This document shows positions 46,157 through 54,395 of a stretch of 64,000 bases of DNA, one piece after another (position 1 is the first letter of the stretch; every line of letters starts with the position of its first letter). Source of the stretch: a virus; IMG/VR virus record IMGVR_UViG_3300029268_000010, positions 26,516 through 90,515 of that record. The stretch is one strand, 5' to 3'. The translations under genes and the position numbers were made by a program. A model generated the notes under the pieces. The model did no database searches, was not told the DNA's origin, and saw only the letters and a list, made by a program, of their open reading frames with translations.

Positions 46157-46344
46157 ATCGTTCTTACCTTTCCCCTGAGATATTCAAAAAGTTTGTCCGG
46201 CTGGTCCAGGGCAAATTGAATTGCTTGATTTGCTATCCATCCCGGGTGTGTATTGAGTGACTTACCCATTTTCTGTAAACGGGTATAATTTCTTGATTCC
46301 AGTCCATGTTGAACCGTAGTTCTTTGGTCATAAAGTTTGCTCAT
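46153..46344 (-). CDS. Hypothetical protein
   Basis: 63 aa, basic and helical, with QFALDQPDKLFEYLRGKV near the C-terminus. Coupled by ATGA overlap to the PAPS-reductase-like gene upstream. Confidence 0.6.
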   Translation of the reverse strand: MSKLYDQRTTVQHGLESRNYTRLQKMGKSLNTHPGWIANQAIQFALDQPDKLFEYLRGKVRTI

Positions 46345-47099
46345 AATTCTAATATTAATTGGTTATTTTCATCTTCTTTTAATTCATCGAGAAATATTCT
46401 TCCATGTTTTTTTGAGGGCATAAGCATTGTCTGATCCAGCTCTCTCTCAACTCTGCAATATTCAGCAAATAATTCGGGCATCAGTTTCTTTGCAGTAAGG
46501 AGATCTGCTTTTGAAGCCATGATACAGAAGCAACAAGATAATCGTGTCATTCCAGCTTTATAGGCCCAGTGAGGTTTTTGTTTATGTTCTTTGATAAAGT
46601 CAAAGACTTGTTTTACCTTCCAGTCAAAGATAGGAAACCATTGATACCATGTTCTTTTGCTATTAGACTGACTATCTACTCTTATAAAAGGATCTTTCTT
46701 TGCTCTTCCCGGACTTTCTTCTGCGCGTATGCCCATACAGTTCACTACAACATCAAATCCTCTCTCATTACAGATACCAATAATTTTACTTGATATAGGA
46801 CCCCGTTTAAGGTCGCTGGTGCAGTTTCTGTTCTGAGGTGAAGGAAACATCTTCCTATGGAATATCATATCCCAAAACGTTTTCTTTGCCCTTACAACAT
46901 GAAATTCATGAGAGATTGTTTCTTCAATGTGAGGAATATTACCGGGCCAGTCAACGCCAGGCAAATCTGCATGGATTATAACAAGATTTTCTCTTGGAAT
47001 GATATTTCTCAATGCAAGATACATTGCTTGGGAGTCTTTGCCGGCAGAATGGTTTATTACATACAACACTTTTGGTGTTACTTCTATTGGTAGTTTCAT
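46341..47099 (-). CDS. PAPS reductase / DndC-like PP-loop protein
   Basis: 252 aa. The PP-loop HSAGKDSQA (~16-24, SGKDS type) binds ATP or PAPS; CTSDLKR at ~95, GIRAEES at ~125 and RLSCCFCIM near 190 are the family's other conserved blocks. It matches the phage PAPS-reductase-like family, which could reduce sulfate, activate an acid for DNA or tRNA modification, or adenylate another substrate; the reaction in phages is not settled. It is coupled by 4-bp overlaps to the gene at 47096 and, further upstream, to the sliding clamp and the ThiF gene. Confidence 0.85.
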   Translation of the reverse strand: MKLPIEVTPKVLYVINHSAGKDSQAMYLALRNIIPRENLVIIHADLPGVDWPGNIPHIEETISHEFHVVRAKKTFWDMIFHRKMFPSPQNRNCTSDLKRGPISSKIIGICNERGFDVVVNCMGIRAEESPGRAKKDPFIRVDSQSNSKRTWYQWFPIFDWKVKQVFDFIKEHKQKPHWAYKAGMTRLSCCFCIMASKADLLTAKKLMPELFAEYCRVERELDQTMLMPSKKHGRIFLDELKEDENNQLILEL

Positions 47100-47362
47100 G
47101 TCATTTTAAAATAAACAACGTAGTACGGATCAAGTTTATGATTCTTTGGTATCACTGGTGCCATCACCCAAAAATAGAATGGCGTAACATTACCTTCTTT
47201 TACAACAGATCCTCGGACGGCATCTTTGGTTTTTATCTGAATATACAGCGGTTTGTATTTTACAGGTATTCCTGAAACAACCGTTATCTTTTCTCCATGA
47301 TTATGCATTAAATACTGAAGAAAATAAATTACATCACCTATTTGGTCACTTTTTATTATCAT
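47096..47362 (-). CDS. Hypothetical protein
   Basis: 88 aa, mixed beta composition (KYKPLYIQIKTKDAVRG), not recognised. Its ATGA overlaps the clamp stop on one side and the PAPS-reductase-like start on the other, so it is co-translated with both. Confidence 0.65.
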   Translation of the reverse strand: MIIKSDQIGDVIYFLQYLMHNHGEKITVVSGIPVKYKPLYIQIKTKDAVRGSVVKEGNVTPFYFWVMAPVIPKNHKLDPYYVVYFKMT

Positions 47363-48744
47363 GTTATAAATGGATCATCAGGGTTATTTTCATCAAGTTG
47401 TTCTGCAAGTGGAGTGTCAGTCATTTGTTCTGATTCTTCAGTCTTTTCTTCTTCTTTATCTTTTTCATCAGACAGTCCACTCCATTCAGCGATCGGCATC
47501 ATAAGCTGATCGTTATTGACAATAATTGCTCTATTGTTTAGAGGATTATCATCTATTATAGAGAATCCCATTTTTACTCGTTCAACATTCTTTCCGACAA
47601 GAGTTTTGAATATGTTGGCGCTTACAGCAGTTTCAAATTCCTGGCAGTTACAATCCCATTTTATCTTAAAACAGTTTAAGGTATAACTAAACTGGTTTAT
47701 AAGATCTGTATCTTCAGCGCTGATCATTATTTTGTCAGGTTTTATTTTCATCCGCATTTTATTGACCTGATTTCCTGTGACAGCAATAGAATTTAGTATT
47801 GCAAGGATAATACCTTCATGTGGAACTTCAAGGATGATATTAGGCTGAGGAATTACTGCTTCATAGCGAGGATAGACGTCGACAGGATAACGATAGAATG
47901 CTTGATGTTCTTTCCACCGTATACGAATATAGGGTGTTTCCACTAGTCTTACCTTTGCCAGCATATATCCTTTCTGAGAGAGTTTTGCAAAAGCTTCGTC
48001 GGTAATAGACATTGTAGATGATTCTTCATCATCAATAAATACCTTCTGATAGTCATATGGTTTTGCAAGATGTGTAGCGATAACACTTTTGATAGAATCT
48101 TCATTGATATCTTCTTTTGTTGATGCAGTGATATCAACATGGACAAATTCCTTCTTGGGCCATAATGAGATGATCTTTGGAGTCACCATCCATGGAAGGA
48201 TATTAAAATGTTCATCCATTTCCGGACGGTCATAGAAACACATTTTCATTCCATTGGTGCCTACGATCTTATCCCGGATATAGACATGCATCATCACCGG
48301 CCGATGTTCATCCTTGCCCACATACGGAATTGAATCAACAACCTTTTTAATGGAGAACGTACTGAGGGTATCGATGTATTGCCATTTCCATAATTCATTT
48401 TCTTGCGGAAGTTGAGGAAATTCTTCAGCACTAAGAGAAATGAGATTAAACTCAGCATCCCCATAACATATAGTAAGTTTTGTGACTTCTCCATCTTTTG
48501 CTACTTTTATTTCAAGTGAGTCAGTGATAACATTGTTGATAATATTTTTGAATAGGTTAAAATCCACACACACCTCTTCCATTTCATTCAGTTCAGGTAT
48601 GTCAGATACGAGGCAATTCTCAAGATCAGTGGAAACAATTTTTCCTTTTCCAATCAGGATCATTTCAAGGATAGGCAGCTGTGCCTTTTTAGGAACTATT
48701 TTAGAGTGTAGTGCCAAGCACTTTTTTAATACGGCTGTTCTCAT
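47359..48744 (-). CDS. dnaN: DNA polymerase sliding clamp (DnaN-like) with acidic tail
   Basis: 461 aa against about 370 in bacterial clamps. Near the N-terminus LPILEMILIGKGKIVSTDLE is the clamp signature, and toward the C-terminus NRAIIVNNDQLMMPI matches the usual ...MPIR end of domain III. Between them lie three clamp-like repeats with ~70 extra residues. After the MPI motif comes a 45-residue acidic tail ending in NNPDDPFIT. The protein should encircle DNA and tether a polymerase. The start overlaps the ThiF stop by 4 bp, so clamp and PRTRC cassette are expressed together. The polymerase is not in this window. Confidence 0.85.
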   Translation of the reverse strand: MRTAVLKKCLALHSKIVPKKAQLPILEMILIGKGKIVSTDLENCLVSDIPELNEMEEVCVDFNLFKNIINNVITDSLEIKVAKDGEVTKLTICYGDAEFNLISLSAEEFPQLPQENELWKWQYIDTLSTFSIKKVVDSIPYVGKDEHRPVMMHVYIRDKIVGTNGMKMCFYDRPEMDEHFNILPWMVTPKIISLWPKKEFVHVDITASTKEDINEDSIKSVIATHLAKPYDYQKVFIDDEESSTMSITDEAFAKLSQKGYMLAKVRLVETPYIRIRWKEHQAFYRYPVDVYPRYEAVIPQPNIILEVPHEGIILAILNSIAVTGNQVNKMRMKIKPDKIMISAEDTDLINQFSYTLNCFKIKWDCNCQEFETAVSANIFKTLVGKNVERVKMGFSIIDDNPLNNRAIIVNNDQLMMPIAEWSGLSDEKDKEEEKTEESEQMTDTPLAEQLDENNPDDPFIT

Positions 48745-49535
48745 TTATTTATATATAAAGGGTTAGTTGTCCATGAATCAAGGTTTACGAATACACCATG
48801 CTTATCAGTCTTACCATAACGGAACATTGTCCACATCAGGTGAGCGATCCAGTCTGCCATAAATGAATTGATAAACAGGTCTTGCTTTTCTAATGCTTCG
48901 GTAAGCGAGCAGCTGGGAGTATCATTATCTTCTACACCGGTCTTTAGTTCAGGATAGATATCAAAAACATTAGGAAGCTTATTAGCGCCTTTCATTCCTT
49001 TAGGCTGAGGAATCTTGTGCCGCGTTCCCATGATCACTTGACCGATATTCTTTTTGTTGCCTGCATCAATCCAGTAATAAGTCTTTGCATAAGGTTCATT
49101 GGAATTTTGTTTATTCATCCATCCAAGGACCTTCTGTCTTGATTTGACGGTATCAGTACAGGTAATCATAAAGTTTGCACCATAATTAGTATGATGTGAT
49201 TTACCCCAGTGATAGCAATATGCTTTCCATTCATTGCCAAAAGCAAGGTTTATCCTGCTGATCATTACGTCGGCTTTGAAGAGTCCTACATCCTGTGAAT
49301 AGAATAGTTGCCTGCCTACATTTGCAGTAGTTATCTTGTCTCCATCCCATGCCTGAACGAATAACCCAGGATGTCCTATCCCTCTCAATGCAACATCAAG
49401 CATAGCAAGTTTAGTTAAAAGTAAACTTCCGGTGCCCCCAATTCCTATGACATTGATAGTTATTTTATGAGTAGGATTTAGTATGTATGGATCAGTATAA
49501 TGGAGTAGTGATAATTTTTCCGATATGATCTTCAA
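48741..49535 (-). CDS. PRTRC system ThiF protein (E1-like)
   Basis: 264 aa from a TTG at 49535; no ATG/GTG lies between there and the conserved start, and the longer frame (to 49838) would only be a shadow of protein B. Seen: INVIGIGGTGSLLLTKLA (nucleotide-binding Gly motif), WDGDKITTANVGRQLF (the D ... N-x-x-R-Q ATP contacts), TCTDTVKSRQKV, and DTPSCSLTEALEKQDLFINS. The last block, with Cys at about residue 209, is distinctive for PRTRC ThiF and that Cys is the candidate thioester residue. E1-like enzymes adenylate the C-terminus of a ubiquitin-like partner. It overlaps protein B by 44 bp and the sliding clamp by 4 bp. Confidence 0.88.
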   Translation of the reverse strand: MKIISEKLSLLHYTDPYILNPTHKITINVIGIGGTGSLLLTKLAMLDVALRGIGHPGLFVQAWDGDKITTANVGRQLFYSQDVGLFKADVMISRINLAFGNEWKAYCYHWGKSHHTNYGANFMITCTDTVKSRQKVLGWMNKQNSNEPYAKTYYWIDAGNKKNIGQVIMGTRHKIPQPKGMKGANKLPNVFDIYPELKTGVEDNDTPSCSLTEALEKQDLFINSFMADWIAHLMWTMFRYGKTDKHGVFVNLDSWTTNPLYINK

Positions 49536-50208
49536 GACATTCCGTCGGAATCCAGAACTCTTTTGGGATTTCTTTTTCTTCAGGATTTTTCGTCCTCCAC
49601 TGCCAGTATTCTTTTGTTCCTTTCGGTTCGCCATTATTTGTAAATTTACTGTTAAAGTATGCGTTTGTAAAAGCTTCAGGTATCTCCAGTTTAGTCCATA
49701 TTCTATTTCTGTTGTTGTCACCGACTTTTGTATTTCCGAGACATACTGAGCCAGCAGAATTATAAAACAGGGCATTATAGAGCATTGTTTTTTTATCAGG
49801 TCTTTTATCTTCTTTGTACCAATGGACATGAAGTCCACTATTATAAGTCATGATGAAGCCCGGGCAGTGGTACCATCCTGATTTGAATTCACAAGTAAAC
49901 AAGATCTGTCTTTTTGCAGGCGGCACATGCCAGATAACGGTATTTTTATTGTAGAACAACATTCCTTCCGGTACGATATGAGTAGGATCTTCTTCTGTCT
50001 TGTTGATGATAACAGATTTAAAGATACGGGTAAGAACCACATCACTGAGCATTGTTTCTTTGAGGACATTATATTTACCTTCTATGTTCTCTACGTCACG
50101 ACCTGTGATAAAAGAGTCTCCTGCAGTGGTATTCTGATAGATAGTTATGACCTTTGTAGGAACATATTTTGATTTCAGCAATTTATTTATTTCAACTTCT
50201 TTCGTCAT
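49492..50208 (-). CDS. PRTRC system protein B
   Basis: 238 aa from the ATG at 50208 (17-bp overlap with protein F). Key blocks: VIWHVPPAKRQILF, SGWYHCPGFIM, LHVHWYKEDKRPDKKTMLYNALFYNSAGSVC split here as LYNALFYN and GSVCLGNTK, then AFTNAYFNSKFTN and a C-terminal CLEDHIGKI. This run (H-V-P, PG, N-x-x-G-x-V-C-x-G-x) fits the PRTRC B family. Cys156 in VCLG is conserved there as far as I recall and could be the catalytic Cys of an E2-like fold; that is not proven. The stop lies inside the ThiF gene. Confidence 0.82.
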   Translation of the reverse strand: MTKEVEINKLLKSKYVPTKVITIYQNTTAGDSFITGRDVENIEGKYNVLKETMLSDVVLTRIFKSVIINKTEEDPTHIVPEGMLFYNKNTVIWHVPPAKRQILFTCEFKSGWYHCPGFIMTYNSGLHVHWYKEDKRPDKKTMLYNALFYNSAGSVCLGNTKVGDNNRNRIWTKLEIPEAFTNAYFNSKFTNNGEPKGTKEYWQWRTKNPEEKEIPKEFWIPTECLEDHIGKIITTPLY

Positions 50209-51391
50209 TTTTCTCTTTCCAAATATAACTGTTATAGAAACTGCACATTTTGTCTTTCCAGCGATGGAATATAGTAGGGTAATCAGATTCAAGGTCGAAA
50301 CTTTCATTGATAGTATTAATATCAATATGCCTGTTAAGCACCCATGCCATCTGACCATAGTTTCCTATCCTGTCATTCATATCGTTGTATTCATCTTCGA
50401 ATAGTCTCAGGTTTCCATCCCACACAAAACGATAACAATCTGCAATAGGTAGAACTTCTTCTTCCTGGACACCTGGTATCTCATCAAAGAACTGAAAATT
50501 CTCTATGTTGTATTTATTCTGATACACTTTCTTTGCATAATAGAGTATTTCTGCAAAGTGTTTCATAGGACCAAAGATAGATTTGGACTGAGAATATTTC
50601 TCAATGAATTTATTTATGATTTTCATATCGGGTTTTTTCCTCAGTTTACGCCACCATTCTTCTGCAGGAGAATCATTATACTCTTCCATAGGATTTGTCC
50701 ATTCTGACTCTTTATCAGCTTTTTCATCTTCTTCAATAGTTTCATAATAGTCTTTACGCATATCCAAAAGATCATCCCATAGCAATACATCCCACTTCGC
50801 AGTGAGCATGCGTATCATTTCTATGAAAGCAGTTTTTAGTTCAGCAGGTCTTTTGGAATTAAGGACTGCTTTTATGTCAAAGAATTCAAAGTTAGCTTCG
50901 GACTCTCTGTATAGTCTGTATTCAATTGTCTCTCCATAGCTTCCAAAAGCAAAACTGTTCTTAGTGACGTATTTAGTCAGGTAGTTGCAGATAAACTGGA
51001 ATACTTCCCAGGGTTTCATTTTGCCGAAATCAGTATCACGTACTAGGTCTTTATATTCTTTGTGTTTTGTGATAACACTTCCGGTATTAACGATGATATT
51101 CATCATTTTGTCTCTGGAAAATTTATGATCATTTTTCTCCCATGTAACTTCAGCCCATGATTTATGATTTACGTCAACCTCTATGCTATGAAAGGGGATA
51201 TTGATGAGGGGGGCTTTGAGATGTTTTCTTTTTGAACGGAAAGCAACCTGTAACGGCGATTCTGTCCAGTGTCGTCTTTCATCGAGCTTACGATATTTTC
51301 TGGCAAGTAATTCCATTGTGGTTTTTGTTGTTTCTTTTTCCCGTTCTTCTTTATGTAACCTTGTAAGTCCATTATCCTTTAGTGCCAACAT
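50192..51391 (-). CDS. PRTRC system protein F
   Basis: 399 aa. Assigned to PRTRC F mainly by position between proteins C and B and by length (family ~370-400 aa); no short motif is decisive. Sequence is helical and acidic with long charged stretches, no membrane segment or obvious nucleotide site. Its ATG at 51391 overlaps protein C by 20 bp; an internal Met at residue 26 would give a non-overlapping alternative. The molecular role of F is unknown to me. Confidence 0.65.
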   Translation of the reverse strand: MLALKDNGLTRLHKEEREKETTKTTMELLARKYRKLDERRHWTESPLQVAFRSKRKHLKAPLINIPFHSIEVDVNHKSWAEVTWEKNDHKFSRDKMMNIIVNTGSVITKHKEYKDLVRDTDFGKMKPWEVFQFICNYLTKYVTKNSFAFGSYGETIEYRLYRESEANFEFFDIKAVLNSKRPAELKTAFIEMIRMLTAKWDVLLWDDLLDMRKDYYETIEEDEKADKESEWTNPMEEYNDSPAEEWWRKLRKKPDMKIINKFIEKYSQSKSIFGPMKHFAEILYYAKKVYQNKYNIENFQFFDEIPGVQEEEVLPIADCYRFVWDGNLRLFEDEYNDMNDRIGNYGQMAWVLNRHIDINTINESFDLESDYPTIFHRWKDKMCSFYNSYIWKEKNDERS

Positions 51392-51581
51392 GAGCTACGA
51401 ATTTATATACGGCACTGTCATTTTCAATTATTGGACCTTCTGTTGTTGCATTGGTACATTTCGGGTATTTCCCGGAATAGAATTTTCTGACTTCTTCTAC
51501 TGACATTTTGATATCAGGATCAGGGAGAGTCATTGAATCGAATTTAAAAATACGTGGTAATCCTTTTACTTCTAGTGCCAT
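51372..51581 (-). CDS. PRTRC system protein C (short ubiquitin-like candidate)
   Basis: 69 aa, the usual family size. Strong pattern: LPRIFKF, LPDPDIKMSVEEVRKFYSG, YPKCTNATTEGP and AVYKFVAHVGTKG. Family members have a beta-grasp-like layout, and this one ends in a bare C-terminal Gly (KG*) so no processing is needed before E1 activation. If it acts with ThiF, it would be the conjugated modifier or a sulfur carrier. It starts 2 bp after protein E's stop. Confidence 0.88.
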   Translation of the reverse strand: MALEVKGLPRIFKFDSMTLPDPDIKMSVEEVRKFYSGKYPKCTNATTEGPIIENDSAVYKFVAHVGTKG

Positions 51582-51583
51582 AG

Positions 51584-52186
51584 TTATTCCATATTAAACA
51601 TATCCATTTGAGGTACTTCTTCTTTTACTGGTGTAGCGGCAACGACTTTCTGTCCATTGGCATTGGTAGAGGTCTTTTCCACTTTACCGGTACCGTCGCA
51701 TACTGCACAGTCAATAGTTTCTTCTGAGTCTTCATCATTAGAATCATAATTAGGATTGTCAATAGATCCTTCACCTTTACAGTTAGGGCATTCGTCTTTT
51801 TCTTCTTCTTTAGGTGTAGGTTTAGAATATTTGTTTGGCTTGGCAGGGGTCTTTGATGTTCCGCTTGTCTTGGCTTCTTTTGCTTTCTTCTCAGCATTGG
51901 TTTTTATTACTGACACCGCACTGTCAAGTTGTTTTTTAAAGAAGTCCATATTATTCAGCGCTGAGTTAATTTCAGCGATAGGATTTGCCATGGTATTCCA
52001 GAAGTCATTCTCCAACTCTGCAGGAGTTCCATTCATTAATAATGGAGGAATGACTACGCTCTCTGCTTCTTTAGGGATGCAGGGGATGATCATGACAATA
52101 AGTTTGTCTTTTGTCTTGGTAATTCTGATATCAATGGAGTTATTAACGCTCAGTAGCGAATCCATTTTTACAAAGAATTGTTCCAT
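51584..52186 (-). CDS. PRTRC system protein E with C-terminal zinc-knuckle extension
   Basis: 200 aa. Residues 1-100 match the PRTRC E pattern: FFVKMDSLLS, LIVMIIPCIP, PLLMNGTPAELENDF. After a Lys/Ala-rich linker (~110-135) come CPNCKGEG (~138) and CAVCDGTG (~163), the CxxCxGxG repeats of DnaJ-type zinc centres, then an acidic linker between them and a Q/V tail. The zinc pair is not something I associate with PRTRC E and may be an addition. First gene of the E-C-F-B-ThiF run. Confidence 0.78.
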   Translation of the reverse strand: MEQFFVKMDSLLSVNNSIDIRITKTKDKLIVMIIPCIPKEAESVVIPPLLMNGTPAELENDFWNTMANPIAEINSALNNMDFFKKQLDSAVSVIKTNAEKKAKEAKTSGTSKTPAKPNKYSKPTPKEEEKDECPNCKGEGSIDNPNYDSNDEDSEETIDCAVCDGTGKVEKTSTNANGQKVVAATPVKEEVPQMDMFNME

Positions 52187-52545: not shown

Positions 52546-53805
52546 TTATACGGATTGAGTTGTTTTGGCAAATTGGCAAGTACCACCTTCTTTAAGATAG
52601 TTCAGAGGACATTTCTTGCATTCCTGGTATGCATTCTCATAATCTGTCCTTATGGGCCATCCTGAAGCTTCACAGTGCTCGTATATTGCTACGGAATGGT
52701 TTATCCTTGCCATGATGTTTTTCTTTCTCTCCATAGTCCATTTGACGTCTACAGGCTTAAAGTCCAGTTGTTCTTCCGGCACCTGATAGTCAAAGACCAT
52801 ATAGAGGAATAGTTTATTGACGAAGTTCTCTCTTTTTCCAAAAGCTTCTTTCAGGTGAGGGTTGTAGACATAATTGATATCGTCAGTAGCATGAAGATAA
52901 ACTTCTGCCTGAGTGTGATCCATGAATTCAGGAGCACCCCAACAAAAGTCACCGAACTTGGTATTGACATTGCCTGTAAATTTAACATCTACTATAGCCG
53001 TCCATTGTTTTCCTTCATAGAAGATAGGCACAGGGAAGATATCAGGATTTGTCTCAAGAAGTATCTTATCCTTTTCGTCGATAACCTTAAAGATTTTAGG
53101 TTGTATGTTGACACCGGGGATGATAGCAAGAGATCCATCAGGAAGAGTCATGCGGTAGTTGTTAAAGATAACCTTTGCCCTGTCAGCCTGCATACGTACT
53201 CTTATCTCGTCGATATATAGTTCTCCTTCCGGCTCAGGTTTACCTTCTTTTTTGGCAGCTTCTATTGCCTTTTTAGACACTCTTTTACGACCTAACGTCT
53301 CAGTACATTCTCCGTCTCTTCCGAAGCCAAGTATCAATGATTCACCAAGGTTGCCGGCTTTCATAGCATCAGAAGGTTCTTCCTTTTTGCTTCCTAAAAT
53401 AGTAGTATGGTATAGTTTGTTAGGACAGAATGGTATCTCACTTCCTTCTTTAAGCACTCTCTTGATAAAAGACTGAGAGATAATACGGTAACCGTCGTCG
53501 ATATATTGCTGCCTTAATGCTGATCCTTCCAGGTTCATAGCCGGAACGATATGGATCTTAGGCTTTGGCTGTTCTGCTACTATCTGATCTTTAATGGAAA
53601 TATCATCGATAGAGAATACATCTTCAAAAATTCTTCCTTTTACTGGAAATTCACAATCAGGTTCTGCTTGTTCTCTTACCTGTATCTTTTTTTCATCAGA
53701 GACATTAAACCTAATCGGTTTAGCCGTCTTTTTCTTGACCTTATCATCAGGTTGCTCGGCTGGAAGATCATCATCGATCTCCCAGGGCATCTTTTCTTTA
53801 TTCAT
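52546..53805 (-). CDS. PD-(D/E)XK nuclease (Cas4/RecB-like)
   Basis: 419 aa. The nuclease core lies in the second half: WTAIVDVKFTGN gives the D-x-K pair after an upstream acidic residue, and HTQAEVYLHATD continues the helix that carries the QxxxY motif. Near the C-terminus CKKCPL and CQFAK place a Cys cluster as in Cas4-type FeS nucleases. The N-terminal 100 residues are charged. Proteins of this type occur in crAss-like replication modules and process DNA ends in recombination. It abuts the SSB-like gene (2 bp), suggesting joint function. Confidence 0.75.
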   Translation of the reverse strand: MNKEKMPWEIDDDLPAEQPDDKVKKKTAKPIRFNVSDEKKIQVREQAEPDCEFPVKGRIFEDVFSIDDISIKDQIVAEQPKPKIHIVPAMNLEGSALRQQYIDDGYRIISQSFIKRVLKEGSEIPFCPNKLYHTTILGSKKEEPSDAMKAGNLGESLILGFGRDGECTETLGRKRVSKKAIEAAKKEGKPEPEGELYIDEIRVRMQADRAKVIFNNYRMTLPDGSLAIIPGVNIQPKIFKVIDEKDKILLETNPDIFPVPIFYEGKQWTAIVDVKFTGNVNTKFGDFCWGAPEFMDHTQAEVYLHATDDINYVYNPHLKEAFGKRENFVNKLFLYMVFDYQVPEEQLDFKPVDVKWTMERKKNIMARINHSVAIYEHCEASGWPIRTDYENAYQECKKCPLNYLKEGGTCQFAKTTQSV

Positions 53806-53807
53806 AA

Positions 53808-54395
53808 TCAGGTTTCAGAAGTATAGAAGTTAAAGTATTCTTCAGCTTTCTTCAGGACAGAATCGTAGGCTTTAGGTTCTTCAAAACGTATTCCTTTGAT
53901 AACCATCCCACGTATTGCCATCCGGATAGCATTGGAGCATATCTTTCCATTTTCAGAGTCCAGTCCTTTGCCCTGCATCCAGGTAAGGAATATCTTGCTG
54001 ATAGCATAGTCATGTCCTTTCTGAATCTTGGCATAGTCAGAGTTCAGAAGGAAGTCTATAGCACATTCCATGCTTACCATTTTGGCTATACGGAGCTGAA
54101 TTTTAGGATCGAGCTCTCTTCTGTTTTCTTTCTGATGACCTGTAGCCTGCTGATCCCTTGACGGCCGGATAATGGTCTTGGTGAAGTTACCCTGCTGTTT
54201 TGTTTCAATCTCATATGTTACCGTTGCTCCGACGATAAATTTAGTCTGATCCTGATTTATAGAACCATATTCTCCGTCGTCATTGTTTTCCATCCGAATT
54301 CTGTGATAATAGATCTTCTTGCCTTGTGGAGAAGTCCATGTGTTGCCGGTATAGACCGCAGTCTTTACTACCGACGTTTTTGTTTCTACTGCCAT
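53808..54395 (-). CDS. SSB-like single-stranded DNA-binding protein
   Basis: 195 aa. The first ~100 residues look like an OB-fold: KTAVYTGNTWTSPQGKKIYYHRIRMENNDDGEYGS then KFIVGATVTYEIE, similar to phage SSB-type proteins; the rest is helical. No acidic C-terminal tip (it ends YFNFYTSET). Sits between the SbcC/RecF-like and the PD-(D/E)XK genes, as in other crAss-like replication modules. Family is inferred from fold impression and neighbours. Confidence 0.6.
   Translation of the reverse strand: MAVETKTSVVKTAVYTGNTWTSPQGKKIYYHRIRMENNDDGEYGSINQDQTKFIVGATVTYEIETKQQGNFTKTIIRPSRDQQATGHQKENRRELDPKIQLRIAKMVSMECAIDFLLNSDYAKIQKGHDYAISKIFLTWMQGKGLDSENGKICSNAIRMAIRGMVIKGIRFEEPKAYDSVLKKAEEYFNFYTSET

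Follow-up and report, generated by a model that had tools for sequence, protein, structure and literature searches.

A PRTRC cassette beside the sliding clamp gene of a phage and its candidate role at the clamp

Gene block around the phage clamp gene

The window, which is the whole stretch of DNA analysed here, covers 64 kb of the 90.5-kb IMG/VR virus record IMGVR_UViG_3300029268_000010, and its minus strand carries a dense block of genes that overlap one another. Read leftward, this block comprises PRTRC E, C, F, B, and ThiF, dnaN, a small gene, and a PAPS-reductase-like gene, and the cassette upstream of dnaN constitutes a complete PRTRC set (E-C-F-B-ThiF) minus the JAB gene. PRTRC E (51584..52186) is a protein of 200 amino acids that matches PF19556 (PRTRC_E) with 67.1 bits (cut-off 26) and TIGR03741 with 51.5 bits (cut-off 37.95). 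C (51372..51581) is ubiquitin-like, 69 amino acids long, and ends exactly at ...GTKG in the alignment; it is followed by F (50192..51391), a divergent protein of 399 amino acids, and B (49492..50208), an E2-like protein with Cys156 in the motif SVCLGN. ThiF (48741..49535) is an E1-like adenylyltransferase with a TTG start, and dnaN (47359..48744) encodes the phage sliding clamp of 461 amino acids. The PAPS-reductase/DndC-like gene (46341-47099) lies two genes after dnaN, and genes of this kind are found near PRTRC in several unrelated elements. Two genes upstream of the cassette, at 53808-54395 and 52546-53805, had been labelled SSB-like and nuclease-like in an earlier note on this DNA; neither has a convincing family match, and the labels are not confirmed. 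On the plus strand, one open frame extends over 16388-36445; with 6685 codons, it is very large for a phage of approximately 90 kb.

PRTRC itself is a known family (NCBIfam TIGR03734-TIGR03742). The window cassette resembles it in having ThiF, C, B, E, and F arranged in the order typical of the family, and shares the JAB-less form of the PRTRC of Bacteroidota plasmids, but it differs in being located in a phage, next to the phage's own DnaN. A scan for the JAB peptidase A gave no match in the 90.5-kb record, the same scan matching no control genome either, and A is also missing from the Bacteroidota plasmid cassettes examined; likewise, ParB and PRTRC D have no match in this record, which is possibly incomplete. 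The cassette matches operon type 6d in the classification of Iyer, Burroughs and Aravind 2006 (PMC1779556); for this type they name a Ub-like protein, a JAB, an E1-like protein, an E2-like protein, and a helical protein, and DnaN goes unmentioned in the paper. A full-text search of open-licence PMC papers found no paper on a link between PRTRC and the clamp, and among the matches listed, nearly all of them passing genome annotations, no title or abstract describes a function for PRTRC. To our knowledge, the tie to the clamp is unreported.

Putative conjugation machinery of the cassette

The earlier note had named the gene before dnaN a PRTRC E1-like gene, and this identity is confirmed, ThiF scoring 240.9 bits with TIGR03736 against a curated cut-off of 144.75. 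Its profile also matches the structures of Cap2, UBA5, and ThiF. Similarly, C exceeds the cut-offs of TIGR03738 (67.3 vs 45.95) and PF14454 (Prok_Ub; 79.8 vs 25), and B that of PF14460 (Prok-E2_D; 69.6 vs 25), while the stricter TIGR03737 cut-off is missed by B (74.6 vs 131.45). The residues of the E1 ATP site, GxGGTG, D64, R75, Q76, K87, and D128, are invariant among 168 ThiF sequences, and the E2-like Cys156 of B is conserved in all 167 sequences compared. The E1 Cys209 is invariant too, a count that is biased because PSCSL belonged to the scan pattern. F has no family match in profile searches, although a profile of F from other loci, built without the window protein, matches its residues 153-390, and an F-sized protein is present between C and B in 159 loci. 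No sequence relatives of C, B, or E were found in the PDB. What the cassette family has in common with Bil and CBASS Cap2, bacterial conjugation systems, is the E1/E2-like enzymes and, where the set is complete, a JAB peptidase. Those two systems are anti-phage defences with known targets, whereas the PRTRC of the window sits in a phage replication block.

The C-terminus of C varies with the presence of the peptidase gene. In the JAB-less class, C ends exactly at the glycine, and it is extended beyond it only alongside A (L005, L006, L057, L062, L065-L089, and L339). Three plasmid cassettes (L340, L342, and L343) have A and an unextended C. Among the cassettes examined, an extension of C thus implies A, but A does not imply an extension; a perfect rule between JAB and extension, which had first held in 25/25 and 135/135 cases, was rejected on these three cassettes. 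The pattern, as read from the sequences, fits a ubiquitin-like protein that would need an exposed glycine. A single C, in L233 (10606-10821), ends with GTKA instead of GTKG, the sole such case seen.

The PAPS-reductase-like gene suggests a different use for an activated C, namely a sulfur relay in which C would be a ThiS/MoaD-like carrier charged by ThiF and feeding this enzyme, which would modify DNA or RNA. The position of the gene two genes after dnaN agrees with this, as do such genes near PRTRC in L039 (1754-2968), L081 (11843-12700), L090 (13246-14148), and the plasmid cassette L343 (6076-7875). However, only few loci have one, B is E2-like with an invariant cysteine, and we know of no role for E and F in known sulfur relays, which makes such a relay quite improbable.

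The clamp protein

The product of dnaN matches DNA_pol3_beta (PF00712) with 29.3 bits (cut-off 24.4) and phrog_947, and misses the cut-off of the equivalog TIGR00663 (48.3 vs 137.65). A profile made solely from other phage clamps matches its residues 3-205 and 284-411, and its AlphaFold2 model matches solved DnaN structures with an E-value of 2e-22 and a target TM of 0.80, which supports a three-domain clamp fold. Judged by these profiles and the predicted structure, it is a genuine though divergent sliding clamp. It has a disordered insertion at approximately residues 208-269 and a disordered acidic tail at approximately 425-461. The earlier note had named the long acidic tail among the features that make a modification conceivable; the tail is private to the window phage and was rejected as a part of the system because the other PRTRC-linked clamps do not share it, L051 carrying an unrelated extension. 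The tail (47359-47472) ends with ...NPDDPFIT, resembling the DDxPF ends (consensus) of DnaB in related phages, and SSB proteins likewise have ends of the DDxPF type. The clamp frames of L028 (3950-5233) and L054 (3450-4790) start with a cysteine-rich, zinc-like CxxC stretch that resembles a segment within certain long E proteins (L017, L021, and L120); this stretch looks like a generic phage zinc motif.

In eukaryotes, the acceptor lysine of PCNA is K164. The window cassette would resemble PCNA ubiquitylation and SUMOylation in ubiquitin-like modification at a sliding clamp and in recruitment by a short clamp-binding peptide; it differs in that the linked phage clamps have no conserved acceptor lysine comparable to K164. 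The earlier note had drawn this parallel. In its narrow form, C would be linked covalently to the phage's own clamp and would switch the partners of that clamp, a narrower version of the broader action at the clamp proposed below that overlaps with it. The intact E1, E2, and ubiquitin-like residues agree with it, as does all the evidence from gene linkage and from the E motif. Against it, no lysine column is conserved in the alignment of PRTRC-linked clamps, the best being lysine in 10/10 clamps of one clade and leucine in the window clamp; the acidic tail is confined to one phage, PRTRC in bacterial genomes mostly has no adjoining clamp gene, and most phage clamps occur without PRTRC. Attachment of C to the clamp itself is unlikely, without being far-fetched.

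The overlap of ThiF and dnaN

The genes for ThiF and the clamp share four bases at 48741..48744 on the minus strand, which reads ...AAATGAGAAC, the TGA stop of ThiF and the ATG start of dnaN being common to ATGA. The conserved start of ThiF has no ATG, and the TTG at 49535, 44 bp inside PRTRC B, is its only plausible start. The earlier note had described the two genes as coupled by this overlap. The overlap is real, but it was rejected as evidence of coupling because it is commonplace in the block and downstream of ThiF in general: 4-bp overlaps occur at 9/29 junctions of the gene block, including that between dnaN and its next gene, and of 80 ThiF genes from viral PRTRC, 17 end in a 4-bp overlap with the gene that follows, which is never a clamp gene. 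The order ThiF-ATGA-dnaN is repeated in no related phage and is unique to the window phage.

Linkage of clamp and PRTRC across viruses

Scanning IMG/VR, from which very near records may be missing, with one protein at a time, the window ThiF or the window clamp, gave no matches, and an alignment of 20 clamps was too divergent to serve as a scan query. A search with a ThiF alignment retrieved 80 viral contigs, 50 of which were searched whole for DnaN. It is encoded by 21 of these 50, a count read with the limits that the scans rest on short patterns, that contigs may be fragments, and that some IMG/VR contigs may be plasmids. In 20/21 the clamp lies on the strand of ThiF and within approximately 5 kb of it, while random placement expects 2.8. 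Across divergent phages, the linkage takes four forms. In the commonest, seen in 20 loci, dnaN comes directly before E, the gap ranging from -11 to +108 bp. L046 has dnaN within the cassette, flanked by C and F, L020 and L026 have it approximately 3 kb after ThiF, and the window has it immediately after ThiF. The earlier note had asked whether the adjacency is conserved in related phages: a broad linkage of clamp and cassette is, whereas the exact order seen in the window is not.

Pairwise identity among the linked clamps is mostly 12-47%. When unlinked phage clamps are included in the clamp tree, seven changes of the linked state are required, at least four of them forced by well-supported branches, and the link was gained or lost separately at least four times, probably seven. 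Among 97 clamp loci, 24 have E, and in 20 of these E and dnaN are next to each other; the next families reach 8/16 and 6/16. In viral loci, DnaN outnumbers every other non-PRTRC gene beside the cassette. None of 50 clamp contigs without PRTRC nearby had it elsewhere on the contig, and most phage clamps occur without PRTRC. In bacterial genomes, a clear nearby clamp was seen only in L166 of 80 PRTRC loci, and the linkage is therefore mainly a feature of viral records.

The main rival to action at the clamp is operon convenience, in which PRTRC and the clamp are both early genes of the replication block and share an operon, while the target of PRTRC would have nothing to do with the clamp, for instance a regulatory or defence protein of the host. 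Replication genes do cluster, overlaps are everywhere in the gene block, and 29/50 PRTRC contigs have no detected clamp. Yet no other family adjoins the clamp so consistently or is so common beside PRTRC, the linkage exists in several independent arrangements, and E has the clamp-binding-like tails described below; the convenience of a shared operon is a possible explanation, if a somewhat doubtful one.

Control phages selected by DnaB encode clamps in 4/40 and PRTRC in 1/40 cases. The excess of clamps in PRTRC contigs (21/50) has a Fisher p of 8e-4, to be read with the control contigs being shorter on average and the surveyed records being related rather than phylogenetically independent. This excess also agrees with a takeover, in which PRTRC would inactivate the clamp of the host, or proteins bound to that clamp, and the phage would supply an insensitive one instead; plasmids would then act on the host clamp while carrying none. 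However, 29 of the 50 PRTRC viral contigs show no clamp, and plasmid carriers must spare their host, so that a takeover is very unlikely.

The tail of PRTRC E

The AlphaFold2 model of the window E has a folded domain at residues 1-108 and a low-confidence tail, the pLDDT being approximately 90 for residues 1-110 and 45-65 after that. A structural search gave no confident relative of this fold. The tail peptide, EEVPQMDMFNME, is at the C-terminus, which reads ...VPQMDMFNME, and it contains QMDMF (51596..51610, minus strand; E residues 193-197), a candidate beta-clamp-binding motif three residues from the C-terminus that the earlier note had not remarked on. The consensus of such motifs is QL(S/D)LF, often located in disordered tails; positions 4 and 5 (Leu/Met and Phe) weigh most, and the Gln is helpful but non-obligatory, delta using AMSLF (PMC11139829). 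Like E, the known binders, such as Pol II, Pol IV, DnaE, UmuC, and delta, carry Q-x-(S/D)-(L/M)-F, or a sequence close to it, in a disordered loop or tail (PMC11139829). E differs from them in being neither polymerase nor loader, and is by its sequence a candidate binder.

The pattern [QEP].[STDNGQ][LM]F occurs in 24/57 non-redundant E tails, compared with a mean of 1.1 in shuffled tails and 0/2000 shuffles as high, a test that is not fully independent because the pattern was composed after some E tails had been viewed. B, ThiF, and C show no enrichment of it. A strict pattern derived from the published consensus, Q.[SDTNG][LMI]F, is present in 24/154 E proteins and in 31/867 other phage proteins. 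For instance, E of L034 ends with QTSLF and that of L091 with QSSLF, L031 has QNSLFGGE, and several Bacteroides cassettes have QGSLF. The E proteins of proteobacterial plasmids and phages often end with SLF, SLL, SLW, ELF, DMY, or DLY, which are like the last part of the motif only, and many E proteins match it in their last three residues only. Among 24 clamp-linked E proteins, four have no motif-type match, one of these ending with QTSFFN. In addition, the genes directly downstream of dnaN in L019 (3205-5334), L021 (4150-5607), and L033 (3313-4821) encode E with an N6 DNA methylase domain fused at its N-terminus. The clamp-binding-like motif carried by E tails makes them candidates for docking on the clamp.

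Proposed action at the sliding clamp

What adjoins the phage clamp gene is a complete set of an E1-like protein (ThiF), an E2-like protein (B), and a ubiquitin-like protein with a terminal glycine (C), together with E and F. The best explanation of this neighbourhood is that the PRTRC cassette acts at the sliding clamp, to which E tethers it, a reading to which we give an even chance. The disordered tail of E would dock in the hydrophobic cleft of the clamp, that of the phage where it has one and that of the host in plasmids; ThiF would activate C, B would carry it as a thioester, and C would be joined to a substrate close to the clamp, which could be a protein bound there, such as a polymerase, nuclease, or DNA methylase, or the clamp itself. 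The effect would be control over which proteins use the clamp as the mobile element replicates. This reading draws on the excess of DnaN in PRTRC contigs (21/50 vs 4/40), the adjacency of E and dnaN, the changes on the clamp tree, the motifs in E tails, and the fusions of E to methylases. Against it stand the strict Gln motif in only 24/154 E proteins, the four clamp-linked E proteins with no match, the majority of phage clamps, which have no PRTRC, the shortage of clamps near PRTRC in bacterial genomes, the relatedness of the records, and the tendency of phage replication genes to cluster anyway.

A more specific proposal is that PRTRC serves phages and plasmids as a ubiquitin-like modification system directed at the clamp, in which E would dock through its clamp-binding motif while ThiF and B attach C to the clamp or to clamp-bound proteins; this bacterial parallel to the ubiquitylation and SUMOylation of PCNA we put forward tentatively. 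The clamp-modification hypothesis of the earlier note is partly supported, because the neighbourhood is conserved more broadly than it had proposed, though the overlap is uninformative and covalent modification of the clamp is a conjecture.

The proposal names residues to mutate, namely the LF of the E tail, Cys156 of B, and the terminal Gly of C, together with a place to look for conjugates. PRTRC cassettes are carried by hundreds of plasmids and many phages, and if PRTRC acts at the clamp, ubiquitin-like control of replication clamps would extend beyond eukaryotes to bacteria and their viruses.
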